Origin: Bacteroidales bacterium
GTDB taxonomy: Bacteria; Bacteroidota; Bacteroidia; Bacteroidales; UBA932
Direction: 5' to 3'
Length of the DNA stretch: 64,000 nucleotides
NCBI GenBank assembly: GCA_016285455.1
Contig: JAEEQS010000002.1
Span: 186,001-250,000 of the forward strand
Shown here: one piece after another, positions 6,642 through 16,040 of the stretch
Layout of the letters: every line of letters starts with the position of its first letter
Numbering within the stretch: the stretch's first letter is position 1
Made by a program: the position numbers and the translations under genes
Notes under the pieces: model-generated
Seen by the model: only the letters and a program-made list of their open reading frames with translations
The model's database searches: none
Told to the model about the DNA's origin: nothing

Positions 6642-6860
6642 ACTTATATTTCCGCCTTCAAGTATTCCTTTCCCAATTTTCTGATTTTCTGTAGGATTAG
6701 TTTTTCTCTTTCTTTGGAAGGAGTCTTGAATCCCAACAATTATTTGTCGCAAAGAAAACAAACTGCCAATAAAGAATCCGAATTATAAACATTTATAATC
6801 GTTTAAAACATTTCGGAATTAAATGACAAAAATTGCATTCTGCAAGGTTGTTTTATCGAG

Positions 6861-6962
6861 TTTACAGGCCACTTTACAGGCCACTTTACAGACCACTTTA
6901 CAGGCCGGTTTATAGGCCGGTTATGATTTACAGGCTTATTTACAAGCTCATTTACAGGCTCA
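6861..6962. repeat. degenerate 12-bp tandem repeat TTTACAGGCCAC, eight units plus a 6-nt partial unit
   Basis: Read directly: TTTACAGGCCAC x2, TTTACAGACCAC, TTTACAGGCCGG, TTTATAGGCCGG, TTATGA, TTTACAGGCTTA, TTTACAAGCTCA, TTTACAGGCTCA. Confidence 0.9.
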
Positions 6963-6978
6963 TTACTCCTGTCTTCAA

Positions 6979-7050
6979 CAAAAATAGTTATCATTGTTGA
7001 TAATACTGACTTCATTGGAAAACAGATGAGGAGCTGGATGCGTGGATAGC
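6979..7050 (+). pseudogene. putative deletion scar of a higBA-like cassette (5' operator fused to 3' flank)
   Basis: 6979-7004 matches 14161-14186 (25/26), followed at once by a block resembling DNA just 3' of higA (from about 14920). Confidence 0.55.
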
Positions 7051-8797
7051 GTTGTTATCAATCTTGATTCTACATCAAACCACAACTGAGGGAGGGCCAG
7101 GCATGAAACTGACGCAGTTGTTATCAATCTTGATTCTACATCAAACCACAACGAGTAGGAGGCATACAGCACGGTGCTGTTGTTGTTATCAATCTTGATT
7201 CTACATCAAACCACAACCTTGCGCGATGCCAAGAAACTTGAATCAGAGTTGTTATCAATCTTGATTCTACATCAAACCACAACTGCAGGCCTCTTTCCAG
7301 TGCAGCGCGGCTAGTTGTTATCAATCTTGATTCTACATCAAACCACAACTCAGTTCCCCGATAACGCGTTTCGCGTAATCGTTGTTATCAATCTTGATTC
7401 TACATCAAACCACAACTGCAGAACATATTTTCCTGTGGCAGTCTGAGTTGTTATCAATCTTGATTCTACATCAAACCACAACCGATCCAGCAGCACGCTG
7501 TCCGTGCCGTAGGTTGTTATCAATCTTGATTCTACATCAAACCACAACGCTCTCTCGCAAGCTCTGAACGAGCAATAGTTGTTATCAATCTTGATTCTAC
7601 ATCAAACCACAACCCAGGGCGTAGGCGCAGATAGCGCACTTGAGTTGTTATCAATCTTGATTCTACATCAAACCACAACTTCATTGACGAGCGGTATTTC
7701 GGGCCGGACGTTGTTATCAATCTTGATTCTACATCAAACCACAACATAAGGCCGTCGGCTTCGTAGCGGGCCACGGTTGTTATCAATCTTGATTCTACAT
7801 CAAACCACAACCTAAATGAGAAACGAGAGGCGTTGCTTAAAGTTGTTATCAATCTTGATTCTACATCAAACCACAACCGGCACGGTTTCGCGTGAATTTG
7901 GCACGGTGTTGTTATCAATCTTGATTCTACATCAAACCACAACCTTCGTCATAATAATATTCCCGTTCGCATCGTTGTTATCAATCTTGATTCTACATCA
8001 AACCACAACCTTCTGGGTTTGTGCGTCAAAAAAACCAAAGTTGTTATCAATCTTGATTCTACATCAAACCACAACTGGCAACTCAAGCCACCGTGCCGCA
8101 GAATTGTTGTTATCAATCTTGATTCTACATCAAACCACAACTCCTGTTGTGCAATCTGTGGCATAATCGTTGTTGTTATCAATCTTGATTCTACATCAAA
8201 CCACAACCTTCTATATCAAATGTAGTTAGAGGAAAAGGTTGTTATCAATCTTGATTCTACATCAAACCACAACAGAGAGTGCGTATATGGCTGCGCTGGC
8301 CGCGTTGTTATCAATCTTGATTCTACATCAAACCACAACAGGTAGATGTAGTTGGAACCTGCAAGGCCGGTTGTTATCAATCTTGATTCTACATCAAACC
8401 ACAACCCATATTCTATATGTGTTTGAAGTTTTTCGTTGTTATCAATCTTGATTCTACATCAAACCACAACTCGTGCTGCGCCAGTTTGGTGACGGTGGCA
8501 GTTGTTATCAATCTTGATTCTACATCAAACCACAACCCGTTCAAGCGGTTTACCTCTTTGGTAAGGTTGTTATCAATCTTGATTCTACATCAAACCACAA
8601 CCGCCCAGATGATGTTATGTACCAAGAAGGGTTGTTATCAATCTTGATTCTACATCAAACCACAACCGTGCGTGGTGCTTCCCAGAACACAATACGTTGT
8701 TATCAATCTTGATTCTACATCAAACCACAACGGTTATCTCGGCAGCCAGCTCCCGCTTTTCGTTGTTATCAATCTTGATTCTACATCAAACCACAAC
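7051..8797 (-). CRISPR. type II-C CRISPR array: 27 repeats of 36 bp and 26 spacers of about 29-31 bp
   Basis: Plus-strand repeat GTTGTTATCAATCTTGATTCTACATCAAACCACAAC, first copy 7051-7086, last 8762-8797, all copies apparently identical. Complementarity to the tracrRNA means crRNA is read from the minus strand as GTTGTGGTTTGATGTAGAATCAAGATTGATAACAAC. Confidence 0.98.
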
Positions 8798-8913: not shown

Positions 8914-9252
8914 CTAAAATAACTCTAACTGTTGAGACTCGGCGTTCTTCAGTCCCTCTATCTTTCCCCAGTAGTTTTGCATATCCCCATATTGTTTGTC
9001 CGTTACACTCAGCAAACTTATATTCCCACTTGGCGGAAGAATTCCTTTAACTCTTTTTGTGTGAACCTGAAGACTTTCATAGGAAGCACAATTTCGGACA
9101 TACACGGAAAACTGCATCATCGAAAAGCCGTCACGCATAAGCAATGTGCGAAACTTGGCTGCATTACGGCGTTCGGTTTTCGTGTTTGTCGGCAAGTCAA
9201 AAAAGACAAACAACCACATTATTCTATATTCGTTCAAGCGAATCTCGCTCAT
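8914..9252 (-). CDS. cas2: CRISPR-associated endonuclease Cas2
   Basis: IMWLFVFFDLPTNTKTERRNAAKFRTLLMRDGFSMMQFSVYVR; start set at ATG 9252, overlapping the cas1 stop. Confidence 0.95.
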   Translation of the reverse strand: MSEIRLNEYRIMWLFVFFDLPTNTKTERRNAAKFRTLLMRDGFSMMQFSVYVRNCASYESLQVHTKRVKGILPPSGNISLLSVTDKQYGDMQNYWGKIEGLKNAESQQLELF

Positions 9253-10133
9253 ATTGACGGATATACTATAGACTTTGCCTCTCCAGAAAAACATTTGACA
9301 AGAGAGGCCGTAGTCATAGACAACGCCACATCCAACGGACGTTTCATTTTGGGGAAAGAGGTGTCGCAAAACAAAACTTTCACCAATTCACTCTTTACCT
9401 TAGCGTTCAGTTCACATTCCCCTAACATCAGAATGTTATAGACACATTCATCCACAAAAGGACGATAAGGTTCCATTATATCATCTGCCAAAGGAAAGGC
9501 ATTATAACGGTTCCTGTGAAAAATGCCGAATGCTGGAGAGAGTCCAGACCCCATCAAAGCCCTGGCCACGGCGGCACGCAAGATTGCATAACCGTAATTC
9601 AAGACAGCATTAGGATCACCACCTTCTCTATTTCGGATGAAATCCTCTCCAAACAATTGTTTCCAATAGATCCGAGCCGAAGCTCCTTCCTTATTATCTG
9701 AGTCTCCGCTCTTCACATTTCTATAGTAAGGAACTAGCAGATCGCCATCCTTGCCCAGCTTATTAAGTAACTTTGACTGATTCTTAATCTTTGCTTCTAT
9801 TATCTGCTTCCAAATATTCTTCTTAATTGGAAGGCTTGCTTCTATCTGCGAACGGTAAACCTCAGCTTGAACACTATTGGCCTCAAGCGGTTGAAGCATA
9901 CAATGAGGCATCTGATTATTGCCACAAATAATCAACGATGTATTATTGTCAACCAATGCATTCATCAACGGAATGGTAAGAGATATTTGGTTGTTGACAA
10001 TTATCACATAGCCAAGATCCTCAATTGGAACGGAACGGTTGGGAGTATCAGTATCTCTATACTCCACAATAAGCTGGTTATTCTTCAGCGATAGTTTCGC
10101 CGGATTAGAGAAGTATATTGCCTTCTTTAACAT
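9249..10133 (-). CDS. cas1: CRISPR-associated endonuclease Cas1
   Basis: Type II Cas1 features (YGYAILRAAVARALMGSGLSPAFGIFHRNRYNAFPLADDIMEPYRPFVD). Confidence 0.95.
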   Translation of the reverse strand: MLKKAIYFSNPAKLSLKNNQLIVEYRDTDTPNRSVPIEDLGYVIIVNNQISLTIPLMNALVDNNTSLIICGNNQMPHCMLQPLEANSVQAEVYRSQIEASLPIKKNIWKQIIEAKIKNQSKLLNKLGKDGDLLVPYYRNVKSGDSDNKEGASARIYWKQLFGEDFIRNREGGDPNAVLNYGYAILRAAVARALMGSGLSPAFGIFHRNRYNAFPLADDIMEPYRPFVDECVYNILMLGECELNAKVKSELVKVLFCDTSFPKMKRPLDVALSMTTASLVKCFSGEAKSIVYPSI

Positions 10134-10137
10134 AATA

Positions 10138-13100
10138 CTATCGCCTTATGAAATGAATCTTTCCGGAAGGAGAAAGAGTAAAGTCAAAACCTTCGACCAA
10201 TGCATTCAACTGAGTATGTTTCATTCCAATAATAGGACGCAATTCTTCAAAAGACTTGTAAGCTCCTCCTTTTGCCTTTAAATCCTTCATTGATCGTGAT
10301 TCTTGACAATATAATAATGAAAGTGTTCCATATTCATACAAACCACTTACGAGCTGCGAAGACAAACCGATCACCTTATACAATCTCCTTGTCAACTCCT
10401 CCTGGTTTGCCTCATAGATTTCTTCCGGAGTATCCTCATAGAGAAGAACCATTGTTCCTATCTTCAGAACATACTTGAGTTTGTAACCATTATTGTCTTC
10501 ATTTGGAACCATATTGGAAGAAACACCCTCATTAACAGCACCAACAGCGTTTAGATTATTGACCAATTTGAATGAGCGTTTGATCTTTCCTTTTGCATCA
10601 GTTCCTTCGTAAATACCCATACAGTAGTTTCTGTCATTTGCAACATTGAATTGCTGCTTGTACTCAAAACGGGATTTGTCTCGCTGATCTTTGAGATGGA
10701 TAGGATTGGTAACGGAAGGGGTAAAGATTCTCACTTTCTTTATCTGGATGCCCTTTTCCTCATTCATCCAAATAGTGCCAGCCATTGCTTCTTTGAAGCC
10801 TTTCTCCGCTATGGCCTGTTCTATCTTTTGGCGGACTACATCATCTACAATCTTTAAAACATCTGTTTTCTCCAGAGATGAAAGAGGCTTTCGGACGACA
10901 TATTTGATTTCATCACCTCTTTGAATGGCTCCATAAAATGTTTCAAGATGAAGGGCGCCGCGGGCGGTATCTCCTTTTGTCATAAATGGTTTGCCGTCTG
11001 GCCCTTTCTGTATCTCACCTCTTTTCCTCAACAACTTATATGTACGTTTTTTAAGATTGTCTGGTGTATAGTGAGAGACAAGAACTTCTTTGTTAATTCT
11101 CTGCAAATCTTCAGTAAAGGTTGCCCAAGGTTTAGGCATAGTTGGACGTTCTTTTCCAAACCACTTATTTTCTTCTTCTTTGTGGTAGTAATTAGCCATC
11201 TCGGAGTATTCCCTAGGACCTATGCATGCTATCACAATTGCATCAACAGTATGATTAAGGAAAGTGCTACGGTCTTTCTTCTCATCCCCCTGAAGACCCC
11301 ACATCTTGCGGAACTGGGATGTGGTTAAACCTTTAATAGTATAAATATGATTGAATACCGTTCGCAAATAAGGACGTGCATACTTAGAAATAATGCTATT
11401 ATCGACATCCTGATTCTTTCTATAATCAGACGGCACTTCCTTCATTAAAAATTTGCCATATTTGTCTGACAAGTAGTTTCTTTCATATTCCAGCAGTCTG
11501 CGCTTTTGAATAATGGCATCACGCACTTCTTTGGTTGCAGCTCCGCTCCCCTTCAGTTTTTCTATCTGTTCCCTAAGCTCCTCTATTCTTTCTTTTACTG
11601 GTTCAAGCCGGATAAGAATCTCTTGATGATTTGACAATTGAGAAGGAATCTTGTTTTTCTTGACATCTCTATTGAACTTGTTGTTACAAAGAGTCTTGTT
11701 TTCCAAAGCATCTTCTCCTCCTAAGCTTCTTGGAATAGTGTGCTCAATGTCATATTGCGGATTAGAGCCAAGGAACTGAGAAATACCTATTTTTTCTCCT
11801 GTATATAGACATATATGCCTCTGCTCTTTCCATAGTCTATATTTTTCTATATCTGTCTTTGTTGGCTCAGCATTTATACCATTCTCGCGGAAATGCTTCA
11901 ATATTTCTTCGTGATAAAGATTGTTTTCCTTTTCCCTGTCTCGCTGATATCTTTCAAGAGCCTTACGCTTGTTGGCATCGTTAAGAGAACGGCTATATTC
12001 AATGTGAATCTTAGTGTCTTTGTCAACCTCGCCATTCTTTATCAAATCGTTGATAAGTGCTCTCAGCCTAAACAAAGCCCGCATAGCCATAGGATTCTTG
12101 AAGGAATTAGTTCTCGGAGAACCAAGAAAACCTGTGTTAGATTTAGCATAAACATCTATCATAGAAGGATGATAGAGCCTCTCATAATGAGCTGCTCCCA
12201 AATTAAAGTTGTCCATCAGAAACTCTTTAATTCTCTGCTCAGTTGTTTCTTTGGTTGGAGATGGATTATCAACGATGATACCTATCTCTCGTTCTATGAT
12301 TTTACGATTTTCTGAATTGGAAATGATCTCCTTTGGAACAATACTGGCAATGTTGGCCAAAAATACTGCATGAGAATATTTGAAGCCTCTACGCAAAAAA
12401 GCCAGTATCTTATTGATAGCATTTAGGCTAAGTGAAGCATAATCATTTCCGATTGAAATCTTGCTGAATTTTAGAGCATCGTCTTCAGATAGTTGCAATT
12501 TATCTTTAGCCCAGGCTCTTAGCTTTTCATCATCGCTGAAGAAAAACATAGTATGCCATACATCATTTACAATCTGCTCTTTAGTTTTTTCTTTTTTGTC
12601 TAAATATCTAGAAACTATGCCATCTTCCCAATTGTCACCGAAAATATCTTTTAATCCGGCAACGACCGGACAACCAGATACAGATGTAAACATCTTGAAG
12701 TTGAAACGGTAAGGCTTTTCATCTGGATCTTTGTAAAAAGCATACTGTCCTCTAGCTGACAAGGCTTTGGCTATGTCTTCAAACGGAAATTGCTTTTTGC
12801 TCTTGCGGAAGAAAAGCGGAAGGATCTTTACTATTTCCTCAGCATTCAACGGACGCAAATCTTCATCACAAGGAGTCTTAACCTTAATGTTGTTGATGAA
12901 AGACCACATACGAAATTCCTCAAATCGAGGATGAGAAACAGGACATCTGGTTTTCTTAGTCTCAAACTTGCAATGCCCTACAGAGCCCTTCTGCGATTTC
13001 AGAGGTCTTTGGAAGAAGATTGCCCTTTCGAGTTGTTTCTTGATTGAGTCAGAAATTCCTTGAATTTTGCAAATGGCATCAAATTCATCTTTGTAGTGTT

Positions 13101-13737
13101 GTCTAGAAGTATAGTGAGCACGAATCCTTTCTTTTCCGTAGATAGTATAGAAATACTCACCGATATACTTGCAGCCACTTTCTTCAAGAGCTTTATTCAA
13201 AGCGGATATGTCATCTTTAACCTTGCCATTAGATTCTTTTGTATTCTCTTTTCTATTGCTAAGGAAGCCCCTTCGCTGAGAAAGATGATACATAACACGG
13301 CCTAAGATGTATTTATCCTCTTTTTTGGACAAATCAAGCTTTTGGGTTAACGCAAGATGACGATAATAATATGGATTTTTTTGCTCATTATCGTTCGTAC
13401 GCTGCCAAAGCATAAACTCGTCAATCTTTGGATAAATGTTGCGATAACGCCAGTCTGACAACTGTTCTGCAGATAAATAAGGACACCAACCTAAATCTAC
13501 CAACACCTTCAACGTCTCAATTTTTCTTAATCTTCTACGAAATATTCTCCTTCTTGCAGACCTGTATCCAGTACGTTCTGCTGCTTTTGAAGATTCATTT
13601 CCTTTCTCAATTTTAACTCCCTCCTGGAAGATAGATACACCTTTGTCAAATAGTTTGTAGGATCCATCCTGTTGTGTATCAACAATAGCCCAACCTATAC
13701 TGTTGGTTCCTAAATCAAGGCCAAGTATTCTAGACAT
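10138..13737 (-). CDS. cas9: CRISPR-associated endonuclease Cas9, type II-C, about 1199 aa
   Basis: RuvC-I MSRILGLDLGTNSIGWAIVD, Arg-rich bridge helix RSARRRIFRRRLRK, RuvC-II KIHIEYSRSLND, HNH YDIEHTIPRSLGGEDALENKTLCNNKFNRDVKKNKIP, RuvC-III NHTVDAIVIAC. Start at ATG 13737. Confidence 0.97.
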   Translation of the reverse strand: MSRILGLDLGTNSIGWAIVDTQQDGSYKLFDKGVSIFQEGVKIEKGNESSKAAERTGYRSARRRIFRRRLRKIETLKVLVDLGWCPYLSAEQLSDWRYRNIYPKIDEFMLWQRTNDNEQKNPYYYRHLALTQKLDLSKKEDKYILGRVMYHLSQRRGFLSNRKENTKESNGKVKDDISALNKALEESGCKYIGEYFYTIYGKERIRAHYTSRQHYKDEFDAICKIQGISDSIKKQLERAIFFQRPLKSQKGSVGHCKFETKKTRCPVSHPRFEEFRMWSFINNIKVKTPCDEDLRPLNAEEIVKILPLFFRKSKKQFPFEDIAKALSARGQYAFYKDPDEKPYRFNFKMFTSVSGCPVVAGLKDIFGDNWEDGIVSRYLDKKEKTKEQIVNDVWHTMFFFSDDEKLRAWAKDKLQLSEDDALKFSKISIGNDYASLSLNAINKILAFLRRGFKYSHAVFLANIASIVPKEIISNSENRKIIEREIGIIVDNPSPTKETTEQRIKEFLMDNFNLGAAHYERLYHPSMIDVYAKSNTGFLGSPRTNSFKNPMAMRALFRLRALINDLIKNGEVDKDTKIHIEYSRSLNDANKRKALERYQRDREKENNLYHEEILKHFRENGINAEPTKTDIEKYRLWKEQRHICLYTGEKIGISQFLGSNPQYDIEHTIPRSLGGEDALENKTLCNNKFNRDVKKNKIPSQLSNHQEILIRLEPVKERIEELREQIEKLKGSGAATKEVRDAIIQKRRLLEYERNYLSDKYGKFLMKEVPSDYRKNQDVDNSIISKYARPYLRTVFNHIYTIKGLTTSQFRKMWGLQGDEKKDRSTFLNHTVDAIVIACIGPREYSEMANYYHKEEENKWFGKERPTMPKPWATFTEDLQRINKEVLVSHYTPDNLKKRTYKLLRKRGEIQKGPDGKPFMTKGDTARGALHLETFYGAIQRGDEIKYVVRKPLSSLEKTDVLKIVDDVVRQKIEQAIAEKGFKEAMAGTIWMNEEKGIQIKKVRIFTPSVTNPIHLKDQRDKSRFEYKQQFNVANDRNYCMGIYEGTDAKGKIKRSFKLVNNLNAVGAVNEGVSSNMVPNEDNNGYKLKYVLKIGTMVLLYEDTPEEIYEANQEELTRRLYKVIGLSSQLVSGLYEYGTLSLLYCQESRSMKDLKAKGGAYKSFEELRPIIGMKHTQLNALVEGFDFTLSPSGKIHFIRR

Positions 13738-13772
13738 AATCAATAAATATTTGTCTATAAAATTAACATTAA

Positions 13773-13803
13773 TTTGCTTTATCAACAAAGTTTGCTACCT
13801 TTG
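13773..13803 (+). promoter_or_regulatory. tracrRNA promoter, Bacteroidetes type
   Basis: TTTG (13773-13776), 19 nt, TACCTTTG (13796-13803): consensus -33/-7 with consensus spacing, just upstream of the anti-repeat. Confidence 0.75.
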
Positions 13804-13808
13804 TGTTA

Positions 13809-13887
13809 TAAGATTCTACATCTTATCACAATAAGGCTATATGCCGAAGGTTTTTACCTAAACTCCCGCTTCGGTGGGAGTTTTTTA
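13809..13887 (+). ncRNA. tracrRNA
   Basis: Anti-repeat GATTCTACATCTTATCACAAT (13812-13832) pairs with crRNA repeat 5' part GTTGTGGTTTGATGTAGAATC apart from a short internal loop; nexus hairpin GGC-TATAT-GCC (13835-13845); terminator AACTCCC-GCTTCGGT-GGGAGTT then T run (13861-13886). Confidence 0.85.
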
Positions 13888-13907
13888 TTGGCAAGGACCT
13901 TCGCGCG

Positions 13908-13943
13908 CAAAGATATTGGAGCCTTTTGACAATTTCTGTCAAA
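13908..13943 (-). promoter_or_regulatory. predicted cas9 promoter with overlapping palindromic operator
   Basis: Minus strand TTTGACAGAAATTGTCAAA-N9-TATCTTTGC; same layout as the promoter at 16005-16040. Confidence 0.6.
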
Positions 13944-14160
13944 GAATAATATAATTACCCCTGAATTCAATTAGTAAAAGAAACGATAGCCTCCTTTTCA
14001 AGAACGAACTGAATAGAAACAGTAATTTTAACTTACTATAGTTCAGACCTCTGATCCGTTTTATAAATCATCAAACGATTATAAACGATTATATCCGGAT
14101 AAGATTTGGATTGAAAAAGGGAATGGATATAAGTTTGTCTCGATTTAAATGCCATAGACT

Positions 14161-14208
14161 CAAAAATAGTTATCATTTTTGATAATTAATTAACAAATAT
14201 TATATTTG
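14161..14208 (+). promoter_or_regulatory. higBA operator/promoter
   Basis: Perfect inverted repeat TTATCA-TTTT-TGATAA (14170-14185) and -7 TATATTTG (14201-14208) directly before the toxin ORF. Confidence 0.6.
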
Positions 14209-14218
14209 CAGAAATAAA

Positions 14219-14536
14219 ATGACAATAGAATTTGAAAGTGAAAGCCTGTGGGAGTTATACAGCAACGGAACTACTCAAGACAAAACTTATAACAAATTGC
14301 CGAAAGATATCATAACTCGCTACGTAAAAGTTGTGAACTATCTGAAATTAGCAACAAGAATTGAATCCTTGTTTAGAATCAAGAGTCTGCACTATGAGAA
14401 AAAGAAGGGGAATTTGAGTAACATAGAAACCGTATGGATAAATGATCAATACCGATTGCTATTAAAAAGCAGAGCTGGAGAAGCCGGGATCATCAACATC
14501 ATTTTAATTAAAGAAATATCAAAGCATTATGAATAG
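14219..14536 (+). CDS. higB: RelE/ParE-superfamily HigB-like toxin
   Basis: 105 aa with ...RIKSLHYEKKKGNLSNIETVWINDQYRLLLK..., upstream of and overlapping a HigA-type antitoxin. Confidence 0.75.
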   Translation: MTIEFESESLWELYSNGTTQDKTYNKLPKDIITRYVKVVNYLKLATRIESLFRIKSLHYEKKKGNLSNIETVWINDQYRLLLKSRAGEAGIINIILIKEISKHYE

Positions 14537-14918
14537 AATAACACCAAATAACGTTATTGATGAGAGCACGACTCCTTTTATTGCAACACACCCTGGAGAA
14601 TTGATAAAAGACGAGTTGGCGGAAAGAAAAATGACACAGAAACAGCTTGCCGATATTACTGGCATTAAAACATCTATCCTAAGTCAGACAATAAACGGCA
14701 AGCGCTCAATATCTCTGAATATGGCTGTCAAACTTGAAAAAGCTCTTGACATTCCAGCGGATTTATGGATGAATTTGCAAACTCAGTACAACATTGATTC
14801 TGCTAATATCCTCAAGAGGCAGACAAAACAACTTACAGCAACAATCCACCTTCCGGTCCAAGACAGAAATCTCATAAAGGATCTTTCCAGGAAGTTTGGT
14901 TGGGTCTGTTTATTTTGA
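14529..14918 (+). CDS. higA: HigA-family XRE antitoxin
   Basis: HPGELIKDELAERKMTQKQLADITGIKTSILSQTINGKRSISLNMAVKLEKALDIPADLWMNLQ, typical HigA HTH. Confidence 0.9.
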   Translation: MNRITPNNVIDESTTPFIATHPGELIKDELAERKMTQKQLADITGIKTSILSQTINGKRSISLNMAVKLEKALDIPADLWMNLQTQYNIDSANILKRQTKQLTATIHLPVQDRNLIKDLSRKFGWVCLF

Positions 14919-14984
14919 AAATACTGAATGCATTGGAAAACAGATGGGGAGATGGGTAACGGGGTAGCAAGGTGGTGCTCTTTA

Positions 14985-15941
14985 TTACAAGAAATTGTGC
15001 AACAGCCCTGTAGCTGCAGCGGGAACTGATAGCTTGTCTTCCCAGCAGTCATCAAGAGTAGCATCGTTCCCCCTGATTTTATTCTCTGCAACTTCTTTAG
15101 AGACACCTAACCGGATCATCATATAATTCTTGACCGCCTTCTTGTAGTCTTTCGCATTAAGGTTTCTGAACAGCAATTCGTCACGTTCTTCTATGTCAGC
15201 GATGTGCCCCTTGCCGTTTTTTATCAGCACATAAAAAGGAAGTCCCAGAATGCCATCACCTTTGGGTTCGCAAACAACAACTTCATAACCTTTGTAATTT
15301 GGCTCTAATTTCAAATTAAGATACTCATCTCCGCCTATTACCTTTTTTGCTATCTCTATATTTTTCACAGCAAGGCGTTTGGCATCTAAATCATCCTTAA
15401 AATATTTTTTCAGCTGCTCAAAAGTCCAGGGTAGCCCCTTCCCGAAATACTTGTCAAGACGTTCCATCACTTCAAACATCGTGAGCACGCCAAAATAATT
15501 CTTCAGTTTTTTGAGTGGCACTTTAAACCGCTTGGTATTCTTCTTTATATTTTCAAATACAGCATTATAGAAAACAACAGGGCTAGATGGCGCGGTTTCC
15601 TCGAATTGCACAAAGACTTCGGATATCGTTACTCCTCTTGCCCCAATAGTTCCATCATCATCAAGAACATCAAGTTCCGAGGCTCTTATTTCAATCCTTT
15701 CAAAGAGCTTGTCAGAAGAGTAAACATCGTTGAGCTCACTTTCATAGGGCCATTGAACAAGACGTACCAGATCGTCATATTGAGCATTACGCAAGATGTA
15801 ATCGGTGTAACCATCGGTAGAATCAGGATCCTCGTTGAATCCTTCCAAAGCAGAATAACCAACAAATCCCAAAGGCACGCAGTAACGGCATTTCTTGTCG
15901 TCAGCCTTCTCATAGAAAAAAGCTAATAAATCGTAAAGCAT
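14985..15941 (-). CDS. uncharacterised 318-aa protein with cas9-like promoter
   Basis: Long ORF; 340-aa track version needs a TTG start overlapping the predicted -7 box, so the first ATG (15941) is preferred. No family recognised. Confidence 0.7.
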   Translation of the reverse strand: MLYDLLAFFYEKADDKKCRYCVPLGFVGYSALEGFNEDPDSTDGYTDYILRNAQYDDLVRLVQWPYESELNDVYSSDKLFERIEIRASELDVLDDDGTIGARGVTISEVFVQFEETAPSSPVVFYNAVFENIKKNTKRFKVPLKKLKNYFGVLTMFEVMERLDKYFGKGLPWTFEQLKKYFKDDLDAKRLAVKNIEIAKKVIGGDEYLNLKLEPNYKGYEVVVCEPKGDGILGLPFYVLIKNGKGHIADIEERDELLFRNLNAKDYKKAVKNYMMIRLGVSKEVAENKIRGNDATLDDCWEDKLSVPAAATGLLHNFL

Positions 15942-16004
15942 AACGTTAAATAATAAGGAATAAGTAATTTGTTCAAGAAGGAGAGCCCCCTCTTGAGTCA
16001 ATGG

Positions 16005-16040
16005 CAAAGATACAAGGCCGCTTTGACAAGTTCTGTCAAA
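16005..16040 (-). promoter_or_regulatory. predicted promoter with palindromic operator, upstream of the 318-aa ORF
   Basis: Minus strand TTTGACAGAACTTGTCAAA-N9-TATCTTTGC. Confidence 0.6.

Follow-up and report, generated by a model that had tools for sequence, protein, structure and literature searches.

Why does a CRISPR array in a rumen-type Bacteroidales genome (G000) adjoin a 72-base stretch resembling the two flanks of a toxin-antitoxin (TA) cassette with no genes between them? In the window, the whole 64,000-nt stretch of this genome analysed here, positions 6979-7050 consist of a higBA operator fused straight to the DNA that lies 3' of higA. The reading favoured here, with a probability of roughly 77%, is that this stretch is the scar of an old, divergent higBA cassette that was lost by a deletion of about 736 bp.

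The scar abuts a type II CRISPR-Cas locus that consists of an array of 27 perfect 36-bp repeats (7051-8797, minus strand), the genes cas2, cas1, and cas9 (8914-13788, minus strand; NCBIfam TIGR01573, TIGR03639, and TIGR01865), and a tracrRNA gene read from the sequence (13801-13885, plus strand); no cas genes beyond these three were seen at the locus. The tracrRNA includes an anti-repeat (repeat-like at 13812-13831) and a terminator hairpin, and it is conserved in relatives. The tracrRNA gene is on the plus strand, and its anti-repeat is similar to the repeat as read on that strand. crRNA is thus likely transcribed from the minus strand, which would make position 7051 the leader-distal, old end of the array. 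This placing fits the aberrant terminal repeat found at the same edge in a related genome, G011, and the survival of that repeat as a lone repeat in two others, G022 and G023. The possibility that the 72 bases are a CRISPR leader was rejected, since the anti-repeat places the leader side next to cas2 and the sequence at this edge is unrelated in four relatives.

The relatives also differ in what lies around the locus. G022 has lost cas9, cas1, cas2, and the array, leaving a single CRISPR repeat joined directly to the tracrRNA gene (L060, 11284-11533). G023 has tandem genes between its lone repeat and the array edge (contig C13, L062, 1-1805); these genes and the window's open reading frame at 14985-16007 have a common C-terminal domain (..DYKKAVK..YWEDKLPVSATATG..), N-terminal parts that differ among species, and no Pfam match.

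The intact counterpart of the scar is found on the other side of the CRISPR-Cas locus. Its operator and promoter (14161-14209, plus strand) have the form TTTG-N19-TATATTTG, which we take to be a Bacteroidetes-type promoter, and the operator palindrome, conserved in homologues, overlaps the -33 box. The predicted toxin gene higB (14219-14536, plus strand) precedes and overlaps higA (14529-14918, plus strand), which encodes a predicted HigA-family XRE antitoxin (TIGR02607, 66.9 bits against a cut-off of 47.7) and is followed by a 3' flank (14919-14979, plus strand) that aligns with 7005-7050. By sequence HigB is sub-threshold for PF05015 (24.1 bits against a cut-off of 27; E 5e-5) and has no match among PDB sequences; its AlphaFold model (pLDDT 80) has HigBA and HigB chains of Proteus vulgaris as the top Foldseek matches (TM 0.6-0.7), so that the predicted fold points to a RelE-like HigB toxin. 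The cassette thus resembles the type II TA system HigBA of P. vulgaris in having the toxin gene first, a HigA recognized by TIGR02607, a palindromic operator at its own promoter, and a HigB model closest to the P. vulgaris chains. It differs from known HigBA systems in a HigB that falls below the Pfam cut-off, in a left copy present only as a remnant, and in its site next to the cas9/tracrRNA end.

Alignment confirmed the resemblance on which the earlier note had based its proposal of a deleted second cassette. Positions 6979-7004 match the operator at 14161-14186 in 25 of 26 bases; the half-sites TTATCA..TGATAA are intact and the -7 promoter element is absent. The bases that follow had been described as about 80% identical to the DNA after higA; they match 14915-14968, from the higA stop codon on, at 43 of 54 ungapped positions over 6997-7050 (best stretch, 36 of 41), with the small correction that the two blocks overlap at TTGATAAT (6997-7004). 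The remainder of the second block (7005-7050, plus strand) abuts the first CRISPR repeat. Within the window the operator and 3' blocks have BLAST E-values of 4e-6 and 8e-9, and the scar scores 47 and 58 against the two higBA flanks, compared with maxima of 29 and 25 for 5000 random 72-bp windows. The strand and order of the two blocks are those of the intact cassette, and the coding part is indeed missing, with about 730 bp (promoter -7 element, higB, and higA) absent between them; the scar itself encodes no protein. Elsewhere in the genome neither block recurs, as the exact operator motif occurs only in the scar and at the intact higBA, and the 3' block only in the scar and 3' of the intact higA.

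The point at which the two blocks join is informative about how they came together. In the intact cassette, imperfect direct repeats with 9 of 10 positions identical, TTTTGATAAT (14177-14186) and TTTTGAAAAT (14913-14922), bound the 736 bp that are missing from the scar, and the scar keeps at its junction (6997-7004, plus strand, where the two alignments overlap) a sequence common to both parents. A second species, G014, carries the scar directly beside its array, with 68 of 72 positions identical to G000 by eye in an ungapped alignment. G014 keeps TTTTTGATAAT where G000 has TTGTTGATAAT, so its junction reads TTTTGATAAT and its operator side is exactly that of the intact sequence. A slippage-type deletion is expected to leave this pattern, in which the lost segment has a direct repeat at each end. 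Scars of deletions between short direct repeats (microhomology) keep one repeat copy and join the two flanks, as here; no difference from such scars is evident, and the event would be an ordinary one.

The same repeats can be read in another way, in which 6979-7050 is an unoccupied target for higBA insertion and TTTTGATAAT is the target-site duplication that bounds the inserted segment in the right-hand copy. This explanation would place the operator outside the insert, and the operator appears to belong to higBA. Among HigA relatives taken from 33 genome contigs, a recurring palindrome, AATT(A/C)(T/G)CA..TTTGCGAATT or its GATAATT variant, is found at the promoter upstream of nearly all unlinked higB homologues, and this constant placing ties the operator to the cassette. 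A matrix was built from the operators of 14 unlinked higBA relatives, with the CRISPR-linked ones left out. Its best site in the 64-kb window is the true operator (14168) and its second-best the scar (6986), and in the 10-kb left contig of G014 the scar is the best site; as a caveat, the seed pattern used to choose the matrix sites was loose and allowed the GATAATT form. In addition, neither a transposase nor terminal inverted repeats were seen, and the right-hand sites of G011 and G022, which are truly empty, do not resemble the scar. An empty site is the least probable of the explanations considered.

The intact half-sites in both species, together with a G014 operator core that matches the right-hand operator at 21 of 21 positions, might instead mean that the left operator has been kept as a HigA binding site that links control of higBA to the edge of the array. 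Against such a retained function, the sequence holds no -7 element and no terminator, control of array transcription would be unlikely from a leader-distal position, and the two scar copies differ by four to five substitutions over 72 bp, so that no excess of constraint can be claimed. We regard a retained regulatory element as improbable. On the minus strand the palindrome is followed by T's; this was not called as a terminator, and it folds only weakly better than shuffled sequences.

As an example of what would overturn its proposal, the earlier note had named a 3' block that is a common repeat unrelated to higBA. This was excluded in the collections searched, where the 3' block was seen only 3' of CRISPR-linked higA and in the scars. 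It was not found beside unlinked higBA homologues, in other members of the genus, or in viral contigs; 393 genomes of the order hold no full unit and only two partial matches (30-39 bp) with no convincing higBA alongside. Phages gave only chance-level matches to the block, and plasmids no higBA match. Nor does the block appear to be the coding remnant of a longer higA, since homologous HigA proteins end at the same place and the differences between the copies, judged by eye, are not coding-like.

While the operator is 96% identical between the scar and the right-hand cassette, the 3' block is only about 80% identical, so the scar would derive from a divergent parent cassette or be an old copy. 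The higBA genes of G014, G023, and G027 are 99.8-100% identical to those of G000, and a block of about 2 kb that includes the cas9 5' end, the tracrRNA gene, and higBA is 97-100% identical in these four species. One boundary of this block is near 12,900 within cas9 (for G014 it lies deeper in the gene); the other is at about 14,979, right after the 3' flank. Beyond these limits, the G000 cas9 shares 78-87% identity with its counterparts in G023 and G027, and the G023 cas9 (11,000-12,900) is 99% identical to that of G011, which, like G022, has a right-hand site without higBA. The identity of the block against the divergent remainder of cas9 indicates that the cas9 5' end, tracrRNA, and higBA were exchanged as a unit. 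Because the right-hand higBA arrived recently, its coexistence with a left copy cannot be assumed; the left copy may already have been gone by then. The earlier suggestion that two TA cassettes in the same orientation flanked the array is thus supported in part: it stands for the left remnant, and no intact left higBA that would bear out coexistence of both cassettes was seen in the genomes searched.

That lack, like the divergence of the 3' block, counts against the favoured reading. No intact higBA was found at the left flank among 39 genus and 399 family genomes (one genome per species, a sampling that may have missed it) or among the HigA relatives, and four members of the genus (G011, G013, G022, and G023) have unrelated sequence at this array edge with no trace of higBA. 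The scars in G000 and G014 may moreover be shared through recent exchange of the flank, as the left flanks of the two are 92-99% identical near the array and 75-86% further out, and they are best counted as one event. Since an intact left higBA is found in none of the genomes searched, we infer the deletion of the left cassette from the two blocks and their order, the homology at the junction, the identity of the operator, and the scar in two species.

An intact left cassette would never have existed if only two short flank pieces had been copied leftward by gene conversion or template switching. Such a partial copy agrees with the failure to find the intact form and with a locus that is clearly mosaic through recombination, and the joined product is what a deletion allele of the right-hand cassette would look like, an allele that might have formed at some other place before its transfer. 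It still needs a jump over 736 bp with both ends falling precisely in the 10-bp repeats, and so a higBA deletion at some time, and it leaves the 3' block about 20% different from its sole known source, which itself hardly varies among four species. We consider a partial copy unlikely.

The favoured reading, deletion of an old left cassette, would run as follows. A higBA cassette in the orientation of the present one would have occupied the leader-distal array edge in the lineage of G000 and G014 or in a donor to it. Slippage in replication, or end-joining, between the imperfect 10-bp direct repeats, one in the operator/-33 region (TTTTGATAAT) and one at the higA stop codon (TTTTGAAAAT), would have removed about 736 bp with the -7 element, higB, and higA, leaving the operator and 3' flank fused at the end of the array. 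With its half-sites intact, what was left might still be bound by HigA made from the right-hand cassette. Several findings give good support to the view that the stretch is what remains of a higBA-type cassette: the independently derived operator motif, the colinear blocks, the junction microhomology, and the scar in a second species.

The left flank holds traces of a second TA-like module. In G011 and G013 it contains an intact two-gene operon that encodes an unknown protein of 189 aa together with an HTH/DUF2442 protein of 270 aa, located between a zinc-finger gene and the array (L059, 4371-5724; L061, 342-1695); the pair has a weak score to the PADLOC candidate PDC-M64B. What G000 retains is a stretch of 25 codons from the HTH gene (6659-6733, minus strand; 75 bp at 84% to L059 4434-4508) and the putative former upstream region of the operon (6750-6807, plus strand), which includes a quasi-palindrome, AAACATTTATAATCGTTTAAA, and aligns with L059 5798-5865. 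Because these fragments lie in G000 besides the scar, the left flank appears to record two TA-like losses, not one.

Other features of the flanks were observed as well. A quasi-palindrome close to AAACGATTATAAACGTTTA occurs on both sides of the CRISPR-Cas locus (6786-6805 and 14073-14091), in G011 too, and at only four places in the G000 genome. Tandem TTTACAGGCC and TTTACAGGCTCAT units fill 6865-6963, which separates the scar from the old TA upstream region; their copy number differs in G014. In G017, the same MORN and zinc-finger genes have next to them a higBA homologue and, after it, a further HigA-like gene (L028, 9836-11108); this higBA was rejected as an intact left copy, as it lies on the far side of those genes in the opposite orientation and no array was seen there.

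TA modules beside CRISPR-Cas loci are known from CreTA, CRISPR-regulated RNA toxin-antitoxin guards (PMC9458426, PMC10097628). The locus described here resembles CreTA in that position, and differs in that the TA system is a protein one and the CRISPR-Cas system is type II. None of the array spacers matches 13,700-15,400 over at least 10 bases; with no spacer aimed at higBA, control of higBA by CRISPR is not indicated. A limited literature search found the RNA-type guards and no description of higBA beside type II-C loci.

The scar may be viewed as a trace of TA cassettes coming and going at the edges of a type II CRISPR-Cas locus. It is conceivable, though doubtful at present, that the ends of the locus are TA exchange points, where higBA, the cas9 5' end, and tracrRNA would move as a single recombining unit, and where the left scar would show that different TA modules, which select against loss of the locus, have held the flank in turn. 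Together, the scar, the other TA-like pair in sister species, and the cas9-tracrRNA-higBA block make a 'guard' role of protein TA systems for Cas9 loci testable.
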